DNA from: Paenibacillus solani
GTDB lineage: Bacteria > Bacillota > Bacilli > Paenibacillales > Paenibacillaceae
Reading direction: 5' to 3'
Assembly: GCF_001277345.1 (NCBI RefSeq)
Contig: NZ_LIUT01000002.1
Span: 68,262 to 132,261 of the forward strand
DNA: 64,000 nt
Of the stretch, positions 13,449 through 46,495 are shown piece by piece. The first letter of the stretch is position 1. Every line of letters begins with the position of its first letter. A program made the translations under genes and the position numbers. The notes under the pieces were generated by a model. It had not been told where the DNA came from. It ran no database searches and saw only the letters and a list, made by a program, of their open reading frames with translations.

Positions 13449-13745
13449 ACAAAAAAAGCCCTCATCCCAAAAGGGACGAGAGCTTGTCGCTCACGTGGTA
13501 CCACCCAATTTCATTCATGCCTTGCGGCATTCACCTCTTCGGGTACGACGCGAATGAACGCGGGTATACCCTAGCACGTTAACGGGTGCGGGTTCCGGCA
13601 CAGCCTACAACCCCACACGGCAGGGTTTCGGTGTACAGCTCAGAGACCATATTCCCCAGGTTCTTTCTTTACCCCTTTTCACCAGCCGGGGCTCTCTGTT
13701 CAAAGACGTCGCCAAGGTACTCTTTCTCTTCATTGCTTTTGATTA
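13449..13745 (-). promoter_or_regulatory. T-box leader, probably methionine-specific
   Basis: On the minus strand the T-box sequence GGGTGGTACCACG (13494-13507) is followed by GAGCGACAAGCTCTCGTCCC, a hairpin and TTTTTTT (terminator 13449-13484), ending just before metG. Upstream is a long structured stem I region; GGAATATGGTCTC contains a possible ATG specifier, which fits methionine. Uncharged tRNA would bind and favour the antiterminator. The left (5') end is approximate. Confidence 0.9.
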
Positions 13746-38982: not shown

Positions 38983-39215
38983 GTCGTGTGTGCTTCATTC
39001 ATTTTTGCTTTATATCGCTTTAGCTGTGCTCTAGCCGAATAGTCTCAGAGAAACATGATTCATGAACAATCTCACACATTTGTCGGAGAGTGAAACCGCA
39101 CTAGAGGTATATTCAGGAACACTTCCGTGACCTCAGAACCACATTATGTGAAGAATTCTGCCGAAAATGTAGGAGGATTGGCCTCCTCTTTGTCTAATAT
39201 ATGTAAGTATGGCGT

Positions 39216-39280
39216 TAGACGAATTCGTCTATTTGGACCTGTCTGGGAAATGGATGAATACGTGGAAAAGAGTTATAGGA
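39216..39280 (+). repeat. attC-like repeat h, right end only
   Basis: GATGAATACGTGGAAAAGA followed by GTTATAGGA (39272-39280) matches the right end of the other repeats (CGTGAATACAAGAAC-GTTA). GTTATAGGA is the exact reverse complement of TCCTATAAC at the left end of the next repeat. The left end is not recognised; a perfect 16-bp palindrome (39216-39231) and an AGGAGG-CCTCCT hairpin (39172-39187) lie in its place. Confidence 0.6.
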
Positions 39281-39319
39281 AATCAGCGCAAAAATACGAA
39301 AACAAGAAGGTGCAAACTC

Positions 39320-39973
39320 ATGACAATGGTAATTGCTCATGTATGGCAGAACAAAATCATTATTATGGCAGATAGTAGATCATCTGCTAGAGATAAAGAT
39401 GGGAAAATGCTTGAATTTGATGATAAAGCCAATAAAATCATTGAGATTCAAAATAAGCTATTCATTGGTCATGCAGGTTTACGAAAAATACCAATTGGAG
39501 AACACTTTGATTTAAATGAAATAACAATGCATTTTATCAAAATGAATCAAAATAAATTGTTTGATTATTCCGGCGAGTTGATTTTCAGAGGATTAGTGGA
39601 AACATGGAACAGAACACTAAGCGAGAAGCTGGGACGTAATCCTTTTGATTTAAACAATCGCTTTTGCTTGTTGATGGGAATATTCGAAAATGATAATGGA
39701 AAATTAATACCAAAAATTCATAGTTATCAATCTCATTTTAACGAATTTCAATGGGGAGGAACTAAAGCAGTTATTGGTGATGATCCAGTTTATGAGATTA
39801 TTTTGCCTTATTATGAAACTGATAATGCAGATTGGACATTTGATGAGATTATTGATTTTTATCGAAAAGGATTTTCAGAGGTAATGAATAAAGTTGAGAC
39901 AGTCGGAGGACCAATTGATATCTTTGTACTTGATGAAGTACCAGAAAAATCATATTGGTTAGATCGAAAATAA
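39320..39973 (+). CDS. Proteasome-beta-like Ntn hydrolase (cassette gene)
   Basis: 217 residues. The start MTMVIAHVW puts a threonine right after the initiator methionine, as in Ntn hydrolases where it becomes the N-terminal nucleophile. Asp18 (ADSRSS; position 17 of the mature form) and Lys39 (KANKIIEI) match the Asp17 and Lys33 of HslV/proteasome beta subunits, and IGHAGL corresponds to the following AG turn. It should be a protease or amidase and may assemble into a ring. The frame is open to 39209, but AAGAAGGTG precedes the ATG at 39320, which is also needed for the N-terminal Thr. AT-rich compared with the flanks. It fills one cassette between repeats h and a. Confidence 0.7.
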   Translation: MTMVIAHVWQNKIIIMADSRSSARDKDGKMLEFDDKANKIIEIQNKLFIGHAGLRKIPIGEHFDLNEITMHFIKMNQNKLFDYSGELIFRGLVETWNRTLSEKLGRNPFDLNNRFCLLMGIFENDNGKLIPKIHSYQSHFNEFQWGGTKAVIGDDPVYEIILPYYETDNADWTFDEIIDFYRKGFSEVMNKVETVGGPIDIFVLDEVPEKSYWLDRK

Positions 39974-40023
39974 ATAATCAGATAATATAACGAAGTGTGA
40001 GTGATTCGAGGAAGGCGCTGACA

Positions 40024-40217
40024 TCCTATAACACCATGTTCACGCATCGGTCCATTCGGCCCTCGGTCCGGCAGAAGGTAGAAGTGGATTCGGAGAGGGA
40101 TTTCAGCAGTAGGGAAGGCATATTCAGCCGGACACATCCAACTCCCTAACCGCGTCGCGGCCGCCCCTTCGGGGCTTAAGGGAGTTGGACGTCGTGAATA
40201 CAAGAACGTTACATGAA
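40024..40217 (+). repeat. attC-like repeat a
   Basis: Left end TCCTATAAC (40024-40032) then ACCATGTTCACG; right end CGTGAATACAAGAAC then GTTACATGAA (40208-40217). TTCACG and CGTGAA form the inner pair. The interior shows the shared CCCTCGGTCC motif and a stem CCAACTCCCTAA...TTAAGGGAGTTGG around a GC-rich tip. Confidence 0.8.
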
Positions 40218-40235
40218 ATTCATAATACGGAGGGA

Positions 40236-40829
40236 ATGCAATTGTATAATTTCTTTGATAGTAATCTTTTTCAAACAATTATTATTTTTGTGGTTGGTTT
40301 TTTTGTGTTTTTTCTTTATAAAAATCAAAAAAAAGATGAGTTAAAAAGTGCTGCAAATATAGTTGTTTTAGAAATAAAAAGTATTGAAGAATCTCTGGAT
40401 AAACTTAGAGGTTCTAATGACTACTACGAAAGTACGCCAGTAATCGAAATCAATTCATGGGACAAGTATAAGCATTTGTTTGTAAAAAAGCTGGATTTAC
40501 ATCACTACACAACTATTAATGATTTCTTTAACCAAGTTAGTAGAATAGAACAGGAACGAAGAATTTTGAGAAAACAAGTAGAAGTTACAATTTTTGAAAA
40601 AGCCAAGGTGCTACAAAAGCAAGTTGTGATGATTGCAAGTGAAACAATGGAAGAGGATATAAATGCTTATGAGGAGAAGATCAATAGAGTTGCTGAGAGG
40701 TTTTCTAAATCAAGAGTTGAATTTGTAGGTGCTTTTCCTGCTCGTTTAATTCAGAGACTTTTACAAGAGGTTAATACAGTTACAACTACCACGGCGTTTG
40801 ACAAACTAAATAACATAGCAAATTCATAG
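40236..40829 (+). CDS. Single-helix membrane protein with coiled-coil cytoplasmic part (cassette gene)
   Basis: About 197 residues. One membrane helix near the N-terminus (TIIIFVVGFFVFFLY), then a cytoplasmic region dominated by charged heptads (for example IEQERRILRKQVEVTIFEKA) that should form a coiled coil. No enzyme motif is visible. GGAGGG abuts ATG 40236 closely, and TTG at 40242 has better spacing, so the start is uncertain by two codons. AT-rich. The only gene of the cassette between repeats a and b. Confidence 0.6.
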   Translation: MQLYNFFDSNLFQTIIIFVVGFFVFFLYKNQKKDELKSAANIVVLEIKSIEESLDKLRGSNDYYESTPVIEINSWDKYKHLFVKKLDLHHYTTINDFFNQVSRIEQERRILRKQVEVTIFEKAKVLQKQVVMIASETMEEDINAYEEKINRVAERFSKSRVEFVGAFPARLIQRLLQEVNTVTTTTAFDKLNNIANS

Positions 40830-40840
40830 TAGCAATAAAC

Positions 40841-41013
40841 TTCATGTAACATAATATTCACACTTCGGAACCTAACGATTCCTCGGTCCGTCCGAGGAGA
40901 TTGCAAGGGAGCGGAATCATGCAGACATATTTGCGAGGCTAACTGCGCAAGTGCAGCCGGTCCCTTTGTGACCTTAAGCCTCTCGACGTCGTGAATATCT
41001 TATAGTTTAAGAG
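40841..41013 (+). repeat. attC-like repeat b
   Basis: Left end TTCATGTAAC (40841-40850), the exact reverse complement of GTTACATGAA at the right end of repeat a; then ATAATATTCACAC, the shared CCTCGGTCC motif, a stem ending CTTAAGCCTCTCGACGTCG, and CGTGAATATCTTATA-GTTTAAGAG at the right (41005-41013). Confidence 0.8.
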
Positions 41014-41105
41014 CTAGATATGCAGATCAAGAACTCCATTTACTGAGGATTAACCGATCATTGTTAGTTAAATAATGATAAAACTACTGCAAGGGAGTTT
41101 ATAAA

Positions 41106-41298
41106 GTGAAATGTAATAATTGTGGTTCAGTTAATGTTATTGAAGGGAAGCTTTCGACTGGACTTGATGGTGTAGTATTTACAACGATAACCTCACCTTA
41201 AGAATTATTTCGTTATACAGGCGACTGCATGTAAAGATTGTGGACATATTTTTTCCTTAAAATTAGTTACACCTGAATATGTGAACCCAAACAAATAA
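41106..41298 (+). pseudogene. Zinc-ribbon protein, frameshifted (cassette gene)
   Basis: GTG at 41106 behind GGGAG reads MKCNNCGSVNVIEGKLSTGL, then DGVVFTTITSP and a stop. In another frame the sequence continues NYFVIQATACKDCGHIFSLK to TAA at 41298. The two CxxC pairs together would form a zinc ribbon of about 63 residues, so an indel near 41190-41205 breaks the gene. The remaining 180 bases up to repeat c hold nothing I recognise. Confidence 0.6.
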
Positions 41299-41477
41299 GT
41301 AATATAGTGAGGTCATTGTAAATATGCCAGGCACTGTTTGCTCAGAAGTTTCATACATACAGATAGAGAACTATATGTGCAAATCATTAATAACAAGATC
41401 AAAAAAACCTATATGGTAAAGATCATAGATTTTTAGTAACAATGCTTAGTCTGGTGAATCGGAGAAGTCAGTTACAT

Positions 41478-41640
41478 CGCTTAACACCATAATCATGCGT
41501 CGAGCATTCACCCTCGGTCCCAGGAGGGATTTCAAGGAAGATGAATCAGGCGACAACTCTGCACTGACTAAGTCCGTCAGACCCGCGCTGTTGCGCTTAA
41601 GCCAGTGAAGGTTCGTGAATACAACAACGTTCTCCGAAAG
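41478..41640 (+). repeat. attC-like repeat c
   Basis: Left end CGCTTAAC (41478-41485) then ACCATAATCATGCG; shared CCCTCGGTCC; a stem ACTGACTAAGTCC...GCGCTTAAGCCAGT; right end TTCGTGAATACAACAAC-GTTCTCCGAAAG (41629-41640). Confidence 0.78.
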
Positions 41641-41673
41641 AATCGAAATTTACTAACTCAGAGGTGATTATGT

Positions 41674-42516
41674 ATGGAGTATATTAGAGATCTAATAACT
41701 TCTAAAGAGTTTGATAGAATCGCTAGGGAGTTCCCATTAGATAGCGTACTAGTCACTAATAAATTGATATTGAAAATCGATAAGCGATTTGAAAATACTA
41801 CCCTAGAAGATCTAAATATGAATACTGAACAATTTACTAAATTCACAGAAATTAAGTATTGGCTTCAACTAATTGAATATGACTTAGCTTGTACGCATGG
41901 ATGCTTAGTTTATTTGACTTATAAAATTGAAAAAGATTATTTCAAAAATACAACTGAAAAAATGACTGTAATGGATGTACAAGATTTCTCATTCTTTTTT
42001 GAAAGTGCATTGAGCAAACTGTTTACACTTGTAGAAAGGGTAGCGCAATTTATAAATTGTTTGTTTAGTCTAAAATTAATTGAAGATAAACTTGGTTCAA
42101 ATGGAGTATCTATTAAAAATGTAATACGAAAACTACAAGAGAGAGACTTAATCGAAATTAAAGAATGTATTCAAATCATAGATAATGAATCTGAGAAGTT
42201 AAGAAAGTTAAGAAATGCAATAACTCATCATTTTCATCCATTAAATTCACCATTCTACATACATAGTAACGTTAACGGTGTGGTGAGAATTGATAGAGCC
42301 AAACTGTTTGCAAAAGACATAATCAATAAGGAATTAATCTCTTCTTTCCAGATCTCATTCGATAATATAAATGATATGATCAATATGTTGGTAGGAGTAG
42401 CTGTAGGCTACTTTAAGATTGATTGTATATTGATTAAAGATAGAACGGTTGTTGATGCAACTCACTTGAGAATAGGGTTTGAAAGTTTAATAAAAGAAGA
42501 CGCTTCCTTCGGATAA
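41674..42516 (+). CDS. HEPN-domain protein, Cthe_2314-like (cassette gene)
   Basis: 280 residues, all helical in appearance. LRKLRNAITHHFHP contains the HEPN R-X4-H motif (Arg180, His185), the active-site pattern of HEPN ribonucleases; FTLVERVAQFINCLF upstream is a typical first HEPN helix. Cthe_2314-type HEPN proteins are my best family guess. A role as an RNA-cutting toxin or abortive-infection effector is plausible but unproven, and no antitoxin gene is alongside. AGAGGTG precedes the ATG. The TAA stop lies inside the left end of repeat d, leaving almost no spacer, as in integron cassettes. Confidence 0.65.
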   Translation: MEYIRDLITSKEFDRIAREFPLDSVLVTNKLILKIDKRFENTTLEDLNMNTEQFTKFTEIKYWLQLIEYDLACTHGCLVYLTYKIEKDYFKNTTEKMTVMDVQDFSFFFESALSKLFTLVERVAQFINCLFSLKLIEDKLGSNGVSIKNVIRKLQERDLIEIKECIQIIDNESEKLRKLRNAITHHFHPLNSPFYIHSNVNGVVRIDRAKLFAKDIINKELISSFQISFDNINDMINMLVGVAVGYFKIDCILIKDRTVVDATHLRIGFESLIKEDASFG

Positions 42517-42668
42517 CATTATTTTCACGTTCGGGCCTGGCAGCCCTTGGTCCGCAAGAAAAGATTGCTAGAGTAGCAGAATCAGTGGACACATACGTAC
42601 CGACTTAAGGCTGCTTGCGCAGCCTTAAGTCGGTGGGAGGTGGCGAATACGGGAACGTTAGGTGAAAT
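42506..42668 (+). repeat. attC-like repeat d
   Basis: Left end CCTTCGGATAAC (42506-42517) matches the reverse complement of the right end of repeat c (GTTCTCCGAAAG) at 10 of 12 bases. TTATTTTCACG follows. The interior stem CCGACTTAAGGCTG-CTTG-CGCAGCCTTAAGTCGG is nearly perfect. Right end GGCGAATACGGGAAC-GTTAGGTGAAAT (42657-42668). Confidence 0.82.
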
Positions 42669-42690
42669 CATCGAAAATGAGGTGTATAAA

Positions 42691-43494
42691 TTGCCAGAAA
42701 ATAATATTAATGATCGGATTACAGATTGGTTAAATTCTCAAGGATATCCGTTGGAGATGAGTGTAGCAGAAGTTTTACAGAAATTAAACTTTAATGTACG
42801 CCAGTCTGAATACTATATTGATGAAGAGTCAACTCAACACAGAGAAATTGATATAGTTGCAAGTCTTCAAAAAGAAATAGGAGACAAGCTTATTAGAATA
42901 AGTTTGATACTTGAGTGCAAGGTCTCGAAAGATAAACCATGGATAATATTTACCTCAAGTAATACTAGATTAGCTTCGCCTGCTAGAATTGCTCAAAGAG
43001 CAGGATCAAAGATTGGTACTATTATCTTGAGAAACTTAGCACATGAGAAAGAAATTCAAGATCTAAAACTTTTCAGTTTGCCTGAACGTCCTGGTTACGG
43101 GCTGACACAAGCTTTTACAAGTGGTAACGATGTTGCATATAACTCATGTATATCGGTCTCGAAGGCAACTAGAGCAATAGTCAAACAGGCTGATCAAATA
43201 AGGAATGATAGATATGTAAACATTAGCTTTCCGATATTAGTAATTGATGGCAGGTTGTTTGAAACCTATTTAAATGACAGTAATGAAATGAGTGTAAACG
43301 AAGTTTCTCAAGGTATTCTACTATGGCGAAATCCTATTATTGGGATGCCTCATACAGTAATAAACGTTATTACTAAAGATGCATTAGAAGATTATTTGAC
43401 GAGAATTAGAATGGATATTATAAAAATTTTTGATTATATTTCAGAAAACCCATCATTAATCTCAAGAGAACCACAAGTAACTCTAAGAAATTAA
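42691..43494 (+). CDS. PD-(D/E)XK nuclease-like protein (cassette gene)
   Basis: About 267 residues. HREIDIVAS followed 20 residues later by LILECKVS gives the D...ExK metal-site pattern of PD-(D/E)XK nucleases (Asp54, Glu75, Lys77 from the chosen start). It therefore probably cuts DNA. The frame is open into repeat d (GTG 42640), but GAGGTG six bases before the TTG at 42691 gives a better start that lies inside the cassette. It is followed after 14 bases by the HEPN-like gene, and the two form a two-gene unit in one cassette. Not recognised as a named restriction or defence family. Confidence 0.6.
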   Translation: MPENNINDRITDWLNSQGYPLEMSVAEVLQKLNFNVRQSEYYIDEESTQHREIDIVASLQKEIGDKLIRISLILECKVSKDKPWIIFTSSNTRLASPARIAQRAGSKIGTIILRNLAHEKEIQDLKLFSLPERPGYGLTQAFTSGNDVAYNSCISVSKATRAIVKQADQIRNDRYVNISFPILVIDGRLFETYLNDSNEMSVNEVSQGILLWRNPIIGMPHTVINVITKDALEDYLTRIRMDIIKIFDYISENPSLISREPQVTLRN

Positions 43495-43508
43495 TCGGAG
43501 GTTTAAAC

Positions 43509-44828
43509 ATGCAAGAATATTACTCATTAAAATCAGATGAAGCAGACGGAGACCGAGATACAAAATCTATAGTGCTAGAAGAACATGCAAATGAAATAAG
43601 AGAACGCTGTTTAAAATCAAATATTGATTACGAATATACTGATGATTACGAAGTCATAGTTAAATTAAACTCCGGTCGAGAAAAATATAGTGTAATAATT
43701 GATAATTGGTTATCGGCTGTTGCGTTATTAGAAATACGGTTTGAAGAATATATAGTCATCAATAATTATTTGGCAATTTGTGATTATAAATCGGGATATA
43801 TCGAAGCTATTATTGAACCGATCCATACTAGTTTAATTGTTATGTATAGAAAGTTGTTTGGTATTAATTCAGTTCGAGAGGTTACTGCAATTTCACCAAT
43901 TCAACTTACGCAAGAAACAGATAGTGGAAAGATTGAAATAGAATTAGGAGCAGCCTCCCGAGAAATCGCGGTTTTATTAAATAAAAATCTAAGAAGATCA
44001 GGGAGCATTTCACTTAAAATTAAAGGATTAAATATATCGACACATGATAAGGCTTTAGAAGTATTACAGAAGGTCTCCGATTCATTATTCTTTCAAATAG
44101 ATTTGAAGTTTAAATTACCAATTATTTTATCTAAACAATATAATTCAGTTTCTTTTGGGATGGTTCCGAATCAGGCGGATGTTAGCATGTTAGAATTTCC
44201 AAATATGCAATATAATATGGAATCCATCTCTCTCTACTGGTATGCAAGAAGTGCAAGACGAATGCCCTTATTACAGTATCTTGCTTACTATCAGGCGATA
44301 GAGTTTTATTATCCAATCTATAGTGATGTGAATGCGAAAAAAACATTAAAAAACATGTTAAAAGATCCAATGTTTAATGTTAATAATGATGTGAATTTAA
44401 CGAAATTAATAAATTCCCTACGATTGAAGCTTGGGAAAGGTTATAGTAATGAAAAAACCCAACTAATGTCTACTTTGAATGAGTGCATTGAATTAATTGA
44501 GTTAAGAGAATTTCTTGATTCAAATACTAGAAGAGAGGAGTTCTTTTCATATAAATTGCAAGACGGTAAGAAGCCTCAAGCTAAAAGACTAACAGATATT
44601 AAATTATCCTCTTCGATGCCAGATAATGAATTAATTAATGCACTTAGAGATAGAATCTACAATATTAGGTGCAAGATAGTACACAGCAAATCTAACGAGA
44701 GCGAGGAGGATATTGAGATTATACTTCCGTTTTCAAAAGAAGCAGACTTACTTGTATATGATATAGAACTAATTAAATTTATTGCTCAAAAAGTAATTAT
44801 CTCCAGTTCCAACCAGATGTTTTTGTGA
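43509..44828 (+). CDS. Large protein with C-terminal HEPN-like motif (partner of the nuclease)
   Basis: 439 residues. The C-terminus carries RDRIYNIRCKIVHSKSN, an R-X4-H HEPN motif (Arg387, His392) of the kind found in ApeA-like and other defence-linked HEPN proteins; YYQAIEFYYPIY (about 260-272) matches the conserved first helix of such domains. The first 230 residues appear beta/alpha-mixed and are unrecognised, possibly a sensor. CGGAGG lies 8 bases before the ATG. It follows the PD-(D/E)XK gene by 14 bases in the same cassette, so the pair is likely a functional unit, for example a nuclease with an RNA-cutting or sensing partner. Confidence 0.6.
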   Translation: MQEYYSLKSDEADGDRDTKSIVLEEHANEIRERCLKSNIDYEYTDDYEVIVKLNSGREKYSVIIDNWLSAVALLEIRFEEYIVINNYLAICDYKSGYIEAIIEPIHTSLIVMYRKLFGINSVREVTAISPIQLTQETDSGKIEIELGAASREIAVLLNKNLRRSGSISLKIKGLNISTHDKALEVLQKVSDSLFFQIDLKFKLPIILSKQYNSVSFGMVPNQADVSMLEFPNMQYNMESISLYWYARSARRMPLLQYLAYYQAIEFYYPIYSDVNAKKTLKNMLKDPMFNVNNDVNLTKLINSLRLKLGKGYSNEKTQLMSTLNECIELIELREFLDSNTRREEFFSYKLQDGKKPQAKRLTDIKLSSSMPDNELINALRDRIYNIRCKIVHSKSNESEEDIEIILPFSKEADLLVYDIELIKFIAQKVIISSSNQMFL

Positions 44829-44843
44829 CTCATAGAGAAGTAA

Positions 44844-45009
44844 CTTTACATAACAAAGTGTCTACACCATCGTCGCGGTCATCCTTTGTTCTGCCGAGGG
44901 TTTTCGAGGAAGCGTATCAGCAGATGACCCTGCACTTCCTAACCACATCGCGGCCAGTCGCTTGCTCCTTTAAGGTAGTGAGGGTTCGTAGTTACAAGAA
45001 TGTTAGATG
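44844..45009 (+). repeat. attC-like repeat e
   Basis: Left end CTTTACATAAC (44844-44854), a partial match to the reverse complement of repeat d's right end (8 of 11). The interior keeps CATCCTTTGTTC and a stem ACTTCCTAACCAC...TTTAAGGTAGTGAGG. Right end TCGTAGTTACAAGAAT-GTTAGATG (45002-45009). Confidence 0.72.
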
Positions 45010-45041
45010 AACTCCCCCTAAAAATTTATACAGGAGAAGAT

Positions 45042-45524
45042 ATGAAAAAATATTTATTGTCTTTAGCATTGATAGCTCTACTAATCGGCTGTAGTAAACC
45101 TGAACCAGTGTATAAACCCCCAACCAATGAACAAATAACTGATTATGTATATAGCAATAATCTGGATTTAGAAGATAGCATATGGACTAATGATTCCGCA
45201 ATCATTTTGCTTAATAATTCATTAATTACACTTTATGCAGACCAGCAAGGAAAGATATATGATCAAAAAATGTCATGGGGAGCAAATTCTTCAGATCCAG
45301 TGTTTGTAGGAGACGGTAGCCCTTTCATAGCCATTATCATTAATGAAAACTTGTTAAGCTCTGGTGCTGATCGTATCTTAGTTACTTATACCAATGGTAA
45401 ATCCCACTCAAGAGGAATTACAGGAAAAAAGGGTTACTTGATTCCTAATACAGAAACTAGTGAAGTAGATAACATAATAATACTTGATAATGATGGTGAA
45501 GAACTTTACAGAAAGCGTGAGTAA
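45042..45524 (+). CDS. Small lipoprotein, unknown function (cassette gene)
   Basis: About 160 residues. MKKYLLSLALIALLIGC is a lipoprotein signal with the lipobox LIGC, so the mature protein is anchored outside the membrane. The remainder looks like a small beta-rich domain with no known motif. AGGAGAAG precedes the ATG at 45042; an ORF starting in the right end of repeat e (45000) is less likely. AT-rich; a hairpin GGAGAATCCG...CGGAGTCCTCC at about 45584-45613 may terminate it. Confidence 0.65.
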   Translation: MKKYLLSLALIALLIGCSKPEPVYKPPTNEQITDYVYSNNLDLEDSIWTNDSAIILLNNSLITLYADQQGKIYDQKMSWGANSSDPVFVGDGSPFIAIIINENLLSSGADRILVTYTNGKSHSRGITGKKGYLIPNTETSEVDNIIILDNDGEELYRKRE

Positions 45525-45617
45525 CTAATCTCCAGTACTTATTACCGCAGCCCAACTATTACAAGAAACAAGAAATTTAAAAAAGGAGAATCCGTGTATT
45601 CGGAGTCCTCCTCTACA

Positions 45618-45660
45618 TCATCTAACATTGTTTTCACGCTATAGGGCTTACGCCCCTAGT
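45618..45660 (+). repeat. attC-like repeat f, left end only
   Basis: TCATCTAAC (45618-45626) is the exact reverse complement of GTTAGATGA at the right end of repeat e, and ATTGTTTTCACGC follows as in repeat d. Then the similarity stops; no central motif and no right end were found before the GNAT gene. A TATAAT lies at 45670-45675. Confidence 0.65.
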
Positions 45661-45720
45661 CTTCCGATGTATAATCATGGAAGATACATGATTACTACAA
45701 CAACTGGAGGACTCAATCAT

Positions 45721-46137
45721 ATGATTGAATATCTATATTCCTTAGACGGGATAAGTGAAGAGCAATTGGACTCAGGATTTTTTGATGGATGGCCGAATCC
45801 ACCGTCAAGGGCGAATTTTTATAGAATACTACAGAATTCAACCTATGTTTGGCTGGCAGTTGATAAGGATAGCAACAAGGTAGTCGGATTTATTAATGCA
45901 ATTTCAGATAAGGTGTTAACAGCATACATACCATTACTAGAAGTCATACCGGAGTATCAGAAACAAGGGATTGGCTCAGAATTAGTTGACAGAATGTTAG
46001 AACAGTTGAAGGATTATTATATGGTGGATTTGTTATGTGATGCGGATCTACAAGGATATTATGAGAATAGAGGAATGAGAGTAACGACTGGCATGATGAA
46101 GCGCAACTATAATCAACAATCAGGGAAGGCACTGTAG
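45721..46137 (+). CDS. GNAT-family N-acetyltransferase (cassette gene)
   Basis: About 138 residues, the usual size of a single GNAT domain. VVGFINAISD, LLEVIPEYQKQGIGSELVDRMLEQL (acetyl-CoA loop QKQGIG) and GYYENRGM are the standard motifs. GGAGG lies about 10 bases before the ATG at 45721. The substrate is unknown. It lies between the partial repeat f and repeat g and is followed by a terminator hairpin. Confidence 0.85.
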   Translation: MIEYLYSLDGISEEQLDSGFFDGWPNPPSRANFYRILQNSTYVWLAVDKDSNKVVGFINAISDKVLTAYIPLLEVIPEYQKQGIGSELVDRMLEQLKDYYMVDLLCDADLQGYYENRGMRVTTGMMKRNYNQQSGKAL

Positions 46138-46175
46138 GGCAAACCTCATAATCGCGTTATTGTATTCACAAAACG

Positions 46176-46210
46176 ACCCAGCCATAGATAGCTCTTATCA
46201 TAGGCTGGGT
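46176..46210 (+). terminator. Terminator after the GNAT gene
   Basis: ACCCAGCC pairs with GGCTGGGT, with a further ATA...TAT-type pairing towards the loop; a short TATTT tail follows. Confidence 0.7.
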
Positions 46211-46285
46211 TATTTGCTATGTGGATTTTCTCATCAGCATAGAATACGGGAGGATATTGGTGGGCTTTTGTAGAATTCTATAACG

Positions 46286-46455
46286 TCACCTAACAATCAA
46301 TGAATTTATACCATATCTCTGTCTAGGTCCTAGCCTGCAGAGTTTTTTTCGAGGAGGCTGGATCAACAGACACCCCTGCTAGGCTAAGTCCGTTGGCCCA
46401 TTCGATGACGCTCCCTTATGCCTCTTGGGTTCGTAGATACAAAAATGTTCCCCTG
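46286..46455 (+). repeat. attC-like repeat g
   Basis: Left end TCACCTAAC (46286-46294); interior CTAGGTCC and a stem CTGCTAGGCTAAGTCC...; right end TTCGTAGATACAAAAAT-GTTCCCCTG (46447-46455). Its left end is the exact reverse complement of GTTAGGTGA at the right end of repeat d, not of a neighbour, suggesting rearrangement. Confidence 0.7.
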
Positions 46456-46495
46456 CAATCGGCTAATTATTTTAATTTTCTATTTGGAGGATATA

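Follow-up and report, generated by a model that had tools for sequence, protein, structure and literature searches.

We analysed a window of 64,000 nucleotides (nt) of the Paenibacillus solani genome (contig NZ_LIUT01000002.1, here C5, positions 68,262 to 132,261), which contains at 39150-46464 an array of structured repeats with one or two genes between them. Very probably this array, which lacks an integrase and comprises seven cassettes and an attI-like site, belongs to an integron-like system whose full form, with a tyrosine recombinase (P0001), an attI site and about 65 repeats, lies on contig C8 of the same genome. Judged by sequence comparison, the system would function like an integron and yet stand outside the IntI family. 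By the same comparison its units are cassettes bounded by GTT on both sides, and every cassette holds a single repeat together with one or a few genes.

To search for further copies, we built a profile from six of the window repeats (a, b, c, d, e and g) and then iterated it on the P. solani genome. The starting profile already matched same-strand copies on C8, and the iterated profile matched 7 copies in the window and 65 on C8 (E < 1e-6), the latter on one strand over about 63 kb, which excludes chance as the source of the repeats. The median length of the repeat core is about 150 nt. A further eight repeats on that strand of C8, weaker and for the most part partial (E < 1e-6; loci L009-L012), lie about 14-75 kb past the end of the main array and are perhaps its old, decaying tail; one weak copy in the genome is on the opposite strand. 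The best match to integron integrases in the genome is C8:3361411-3362553 (P0001), which is located directly before the first C8 cassette on the same strand, with attI about 90 nt 3' of its stop codon.

A preliminary description of the window had proposed a gene-cassette array with attC-like sites and no adjacent integrase. Both points are strongly supported, in that contig C5 contains no recombinase match, the likely partner is on C8 at the head of a sister array, and the GTT boundary is where single cassettes move. The six repeats a, b, c, d, e and g were all recovered on the + strand. Their ends are of the TAAC...GTTA type and their inner pair of the TTCACG/CGTGAA type, and they have a CCTCGGTCC-like core that is best in a and c. 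The stop codon noted inside the left end of one repeat is the TAA of the open reading frame (ORF) 41674-42516 within repeat d. The count of seven or eight repeats stands for a to g; the eighth, "h", is instead an attI-like site that is matched by neither repeat profile and aligns with the sequence 3' of the C8 recombinase gene. Repeats a to d are well preserved, e and g are lower-scoring and degenerate, and f, although described as a repeat, retains only its left half. The parts of the window array are as follows.

39150..39275, + strand: attI-like site (formerly "h") and 3' remnant of a recombinase gene; crossover GTT at 39272-39274
39273..40208, + strand: cassette 1, ORF 39320-39973 (no match in a Pfam scan) and repeat a; own ends match over 9+7 nt
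40015..40225, + strand: repeat a, attC-like; AAC ends at 40032, GTT at 40208
40209..41005, + strand: cassette 2, ORF 40236-40829 and repeat b; own ends match over 10 nt
40833..41022, + strand: repeat b, attC-like; AAC ends at 40850, GTT at 41005
41006..41629, + strand: cassette 3, repeat c and no long intact + strand ORF listed; ends decayed
41468..41646, + strand: repeat c, attC-like; AAC ends at 41485, GTT at 41629
41630..42657, + strand: cassette 4, HEPN-domain ORF 41674-42516 (Pfam PF18730, E 3.3e-15) and repeat d; own ends nearly match
42500..42674, + strand: repeat d, attC-like; AAC ends at 42517, GTT at 42657
42658..45002, + strand: cassette 5, ORFs listed at 42640-43494 and 43509-44828 (no matches for either in a Pfam scan) and repeat e; ends partly decayed
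44837..45019, + strand: repeat e, attC-like, degenerate; AAC ends at 44854, GTT at 45002
45003..45690, + strand: cassette 6, ORF ending at 45524 and truncated repeat f
45608..45690, + strand: left half of repeat f; AAC ends at 45626, with an nhmmer match confined to model positions 23-97
45691..46447, + strand: cassette 7, GNAT acetyltransferase ORF 45721-46137 (Pfam PF00583, E 1.9e-11) and repeat g; ends decayed
46277..46464, + strand: repeat g, attC-like, degenerate; AAC ends at 46294, GTT at 46447

If units recombine at the GTT, the bases that follow a GTT belong to the next cassette, and a full site is formed only when the two ends of the same cassette meet. We therefore took the left arm of each repeat n and examined its pairing with the sequence following repeat n-1 (the cassette's own start) and with that following repeat n (the next start) in 120 consecutive pairs from 12 arrays, using anchors chosen by the pairing of the L helix without use of positions 4-7. 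Pairing at positions 4-7 was perfect with the own start in 87 of the 120 pairs and with the next start in 12 (within-array shuffles: mean 16.1, maximum 29 in 2000), which argues for unit-by-unit recombination at the GTT. The complementarity of a cassette's own ends covers positions 0-8 and 11-17 (18 nt) and is at background level at position 18; the bases involved vary between cassettes and sit in different repeats. The L'' box has a better match in the L' of its own repeat than in that of the preceding one, which places the crossover at or very near the GTT.

Applied to first cassettes, the own-end rule identified a GTT behind the recombinase gene in 9 of 15 arrays, 74-131 nt past the end of the recombinase frame, and also in the attI-like site of the window, where the 18 nt from the GTT pair (9+7) with the 3' end of cassette 1. 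Three of the remaining first cassettes point into an earlier unanchored repeat and three yield nothing. As a control we used a canonical integron from Calditrichia (L141), in which both script-anchored pairs match, over 8 and 10 nt, and the other two pairs also fit when read by eye.

When the 120 sites were restored with the cassette's own start, they were predicted to fold into an outer arm of 7 pairs, a 2x2 loop, an R helix of 9 pairs, an asymmetric loop, an L helix of 9 pairs and at least three inner hairpins. Two-sided changes occur in every helix, as read from the restored alignment. In 114 of the 120 sites the predicted stability of the restored form exceeded that of the array form, and in 109 the bottom strand was predicted to be more stable than the top strand. 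Top-strand A.C mismatches, which become G.T wobbles on the bottom strand, outnumber G.T mismatches by 244 to 180 overall and by 79 to 8 in the L helix, a figure biased by the choice of anchors. None of the 120 sites needs a bulge to accommodate an extrahelical base in the L boxes, a count likewise biased since the anchors were set by ungapped L pairing. Classical attC sites recombine as folded bottom strands (PMC8946536). For the site described here, folding on the bottom strand is likely.

P0001 is a tyrosine recombinase of 380 amino acids (aa) with a full catalytic set and a SAM-like DNA-binding domain. Its N terminus is extended by about 90 residues, a feature also seen in the AlphaFold2 (AF2) model. 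Residues R225, K250, H316, R319, H342 and Y351, which we take to be the catalytic ones, are invariant in 11 recombinases. Among NCBIfam models the best match is XerA (NF040815, 218.9 bits), just under the curated cut-off of 220, and membership of the XerA type was rejected on this score; the integron integrase model TIGR02249 comes second with 212.6 bits against a cut-off of 265.

The strongest alternative is that these are canonical integrons, with an IntI-type integrase acting on ordinary attC sites, that are merely rare in the phylum. The second place of TIGR02249, the C-terminal SPLD motif and catalytic residues that the array recombinases have in common with IntI, and the presence of attI, a GTT crossover and cassettes all speak for it. 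To compare the two groups of enzymes, we aligned 81 recombinases, of which 21 were array-linked (12 from Paenibacillaceae and 9 from Bacteroidota) and 12 were canonical IntI. The stretch from the KDR patch to the LFP motif spans 25 aligned residues in 21 of 21 array-linked rows versus 56 in 12 of 12 IntI rows, and 25-32 in other Xer-like rows, indicating that the IntI-specific insertion is absent from the array recombinases; in the IntI structure 2a3v, 67 chain residues (171 to 239) stand opposite 26 of P0001. In the tree of the same 81 sequences, the 12 IntI rows and L137 form one clade (100/100) outside which all array recombinases fall, those of the Paenibacillaceae as a separate clade of 12 (98/96) adjoined by the Bacteroidota recombinases, while the fork joining the IntI side to the array recombinases is weak (80/33). 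L137, from a Treponema metagenome-assembled genome, has the insertion length of 56 and, by a loose pattern, also a motif like that of the N-terminal extension. With the XerA-like model scoring slightly higher, and with a multibranched site that has an 18-nt outer arm, we consider the canonical explanation unlikely, and strict membership of the IntI family was rejected for want of the IntI-specific insertion. Thus, of the earlier proposal of a true integron relative, the cassette-array function stands and the assignment to an IntI system does not, the co-directional recombinase gene being a further difference.

Cassettes from 39 stretches (276 in total) were compared in pairs of similar length, with identity calculated over the whole body. 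Fourteen pairs were at least 80% identical, nine of them between species and the best at 99.1% (G000/G032), whereas the 200 bases flanking them on either side were 0.55-0.67 identical in all 14 pairs (random: mean 0.59, maximum 0.65). A single control gene, encoding an ABC transporter in the window, was more diverged, with identities of 90, 84 and 82% in G032, G036 and G014 and no match in G060, compared with 99.1, 93.1, 91.3 and 96.7% for the cassettes shared with G032, G036, G014 and G060. These identities show that single cassettes have moved between places and species.

Related loci diverge from the attI GTT onward. In four of seven locus pairs (L067/L071, L063/L068, L058/L072 and L058/L070) the likeness runs through the recombinase gene and ends 4-12 nt past the attI GTT. 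Among the others, that of L070/L072 ends at the same points, that of L056/L057 stops about 60 nt before attI, and for L059/L060 no attI was located. The cassette at the head of L063 recurs as an inner cassette in L068 (96.4% identity).

These data also bear on a second alternative, in which the repeats are structured RNAs or regulatory elements and mobility is due to homologous recombination between them. Their strongly conserved structure and their location behind genes would fit such elements, but no Rfam family matched in a scan of the repeats, the arms can pair with the far end of their own cassette rather than with adjacent sequence, the arrays begin behind one recombinase gene, and the likeness between loci stops at the attI GTT, which is no repeat; we regard this explanation as very unlikely. 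That each unit is an independent transposon inserting beside its kin is scarcely credible: the complementary ends do look like terminal inverted repeats, but a transposase reads fixed terminal sequences, and here the termini differ between cassettes, the orientation of the repeats is fixed and a recombinase sits beside the array. Neither isolated, gene-independent repeats nor the transposition of whole elements, which the preliminary description had named as contrary outcomes, were seen in the arrays examined, though 27 of the 78 repeat-bearing genomes of the genus, with just 1-4 listed matches each, were not followed up.

Searches of the P. solani genome and of other Paenibacillus, as that description had suggested, found further arrays and a tyrosine recombinase. 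Same-strand repeats are located 3' of the recombinase gene in 30 of 33 loci, the P. solani locus included. They were present in 15 of 17 fetched relatives, L061 having only one at the contig end, and in the two without repeats the contigs end 559 and 613 nt behind the gene. We examined another 15 loci, drawn from other genera and families: at least one repeat followed the gene in 14 (in L205 at a distance of 3.6 kb) and at least two in 12, and the contig of the fifteenth ends after 431 nt. The recombinase genes of the 17 relatives (L056-L072) comprised 8 full-length frames, 2 without the N-terminal part and 7 with only open pieces; decay of the integrase with retention of the array is common among the relatives.

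Among 100 genomes of the same genus, 18 contained the recombinase (E <= 1e-60). Each of these 18 has 6 or more listed repeat matches, with at most 28 scored per genome. We also selected 20 regions, chosen for their many repeats, from 19 genomes that carry repeats and lack a strong recombinase match. Pieces of the recombinase gene, mostly decayed or diverged, precede the first repeat in 10 of them. One array-region repeat in L187 is on the opposite strand, the sole case in the 20 regions. In a sample of Paenibacillaceae the recombinase was present in 83 of 295 genomes and 13 of 19 genera, and in a sample of the class in 20 of 398 genomes, four of them outside the family; both counts are lower bounds because sampling was even and few candidates were scored per genome.

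Several observations weigh against an integron-like system with a dedicated recombinase. Within the genus, 82 genomes show no strong match to the recombinase, yet 60 of them carry at least one repeat, and no recombinase was seen in the other 10 of the 20 repeat-rich regions. The window array is partly decayed, cassette 1 obeying the own-end rule fully and the later ones in part. Both ends could be located well enough for use in only 171 of 240 repeats, and 33 of the 120 pairs are imperfect at positions 4-7; a later set of 15 additional loci yielded only 39 of 67 pairs for the own start and 12 of 67 for the next start. The L-helix figures are biased because the anchors were chosen by L-helix pairing. 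The excess of A.C over G.T is modest overall and reversed in the outer arm (35 to 44) and in two inner helices. A search for LexA boxes found none above background.

Using a profile of the recombinase, we retrieved 80 loci from Bacteroidota. Flavobacterium, Algibacter, Winogradskyella, Arcticiflavibacter, Arundinibacter and others have same-strand arrays, mostly behind the recombinase gene, with repeats that differ in sequence from those of the Paenibacillaceae. Of 34 consecutive pairs, 25 obeyed the own-end rule perfectly at six positions, against a mean of 1 and a maximum of 4 in 300 shuffles, where the anchors were the best of several in the shuffles as well as in the data; by locus, the counts were 9/10 in L103, 4/4 in L091, 3/3 in L086, 3/4 in L078, 2/3 in L083, 4/8 in L101 and 0/1 in both L084 and L100. 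In most of the 80 loci no array was found with the models used in the sequence examined, and many of the contigs end near the gene. Two loci from Flavobacteriaceae (L104 and L130) resemble classical integrons in that their repeats, which are like those of other Bacteroidota, lie on the other strand, upstream of the recombinase gene.

In the C8 array, 64 of the 74 ORFs of at least 80 aa are co-directional with the array. Of 43 stop codons measured, 28 lie 21-55 nt before the AAC of the repeat and four lie inside it. A scan of 69 ORFs identified, by family name only, acetyltransferases (5), peptidase S51 (3), nucleotidyltransferases (2) and a HepT-like gene, and DUF6809 matches three array members. 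A few ORFs match anti-phage models of the PtuA/AriA and PDC types in PADLOC, the match being made at the level of the array. Two neighbouring ORFs, L015:1242-2573 (444 aa, AAA ATPase-like by eye) and L015:314-1237 (308 aa), may be those behind the PtuA/AriAB matches. Three short ORFs of similar appearance (L015:5204-5488, L014:3978-4271 and L013:15233-15517) run against the direction of the array. Elsewhere in the window, an ordinary T-box leader at 13469-13742 on the - strand scored above the Rfam gathering threshold.

In the mechanism that we propose, the recombinase would excise a cassette by a GTT crossover between two repeats. The circular cassette would join its own two ends, giving the 18-nt outer arm and a folded, multibranched site, probably of the bottom strand, which the recombinase would insert into the double-stranded attI. 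Less certainly, the window array may be an old copy of the attI end that was once, or still is, served in trans.

The recombinase-array system appears to be a widespread new class. We think it likely that it represents a second integron system of Paenibacillaceae, other Bacilli and Bacteroidota, with differently folded sites and a separate lineage of Xer-like recombinases with an N-terminal extension, in which integron function, whether newly arisen or retained, does without the IntI domain and which standard finders overlook. A literature search that covered neither subscription papers nor preprints found nothing of this kind. If this is true, more than a quarter of the sampled Paenibacillaceae genomes (83/295) carry the recombinase of another gene-capture class, and Flavobacteria and their relatives carry cousin systems. 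It would also separate the integron functions that need the IntI domain from those that do not, open up many unknown cassettes, some of them matching anti-phage gene models, and raise the question whether integrons arose twice.

Integrons with IntI, including chromosomal superintegrons, are known from bacteria such as Vibrio cholerae. Firmicutes are reported to be nearly devoid of integrons, the IntegronFinder 2.0 paper (PMC9024848) listing for them one complete integron and a few clusters of attC sites lacking integron integrases (CALIN) among complete genomes. The window array resembles a CALIN in having cassettes and no recombinase match on contig C5, a likeness of layout since CALIN are defined by a covariance model of attC, and differs in retaining an attI-like site. 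The recombinases differ from XerA, XerC and XerD (NF040815; PDB 4a8e, 5hxy) in the N-terminal extension of about 90 residues, the SPLD C terminus and the adjacent cassette array. Archaeal integrons share a putative attI directly downstream of the integrase gene but are reported (PMC9668308) to have the IntI-specific domain that the array recombinases lack. The same paper calls this additional domain defining, and it has been described as essential though incompletely conserved (PMC8138268). Complete IntI integrons (PMC9024848) have in common with the system described here a recombinase gene with attI beside it, a long array of small gene cassettes in one orientation, the R''-L''-L'-R' layout with crossover at the GTT and, in the L141 control, the own-end rule. 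They differ in that here the recombinase has no IntI insertion and falls outside the IntI clade, its gene is co-directional with the array and has attI behind its 3' end, and the sites have a multibranched core of about 150 nt with an outer arm of 18 nt, compared with 8 and 10 nt in L141.

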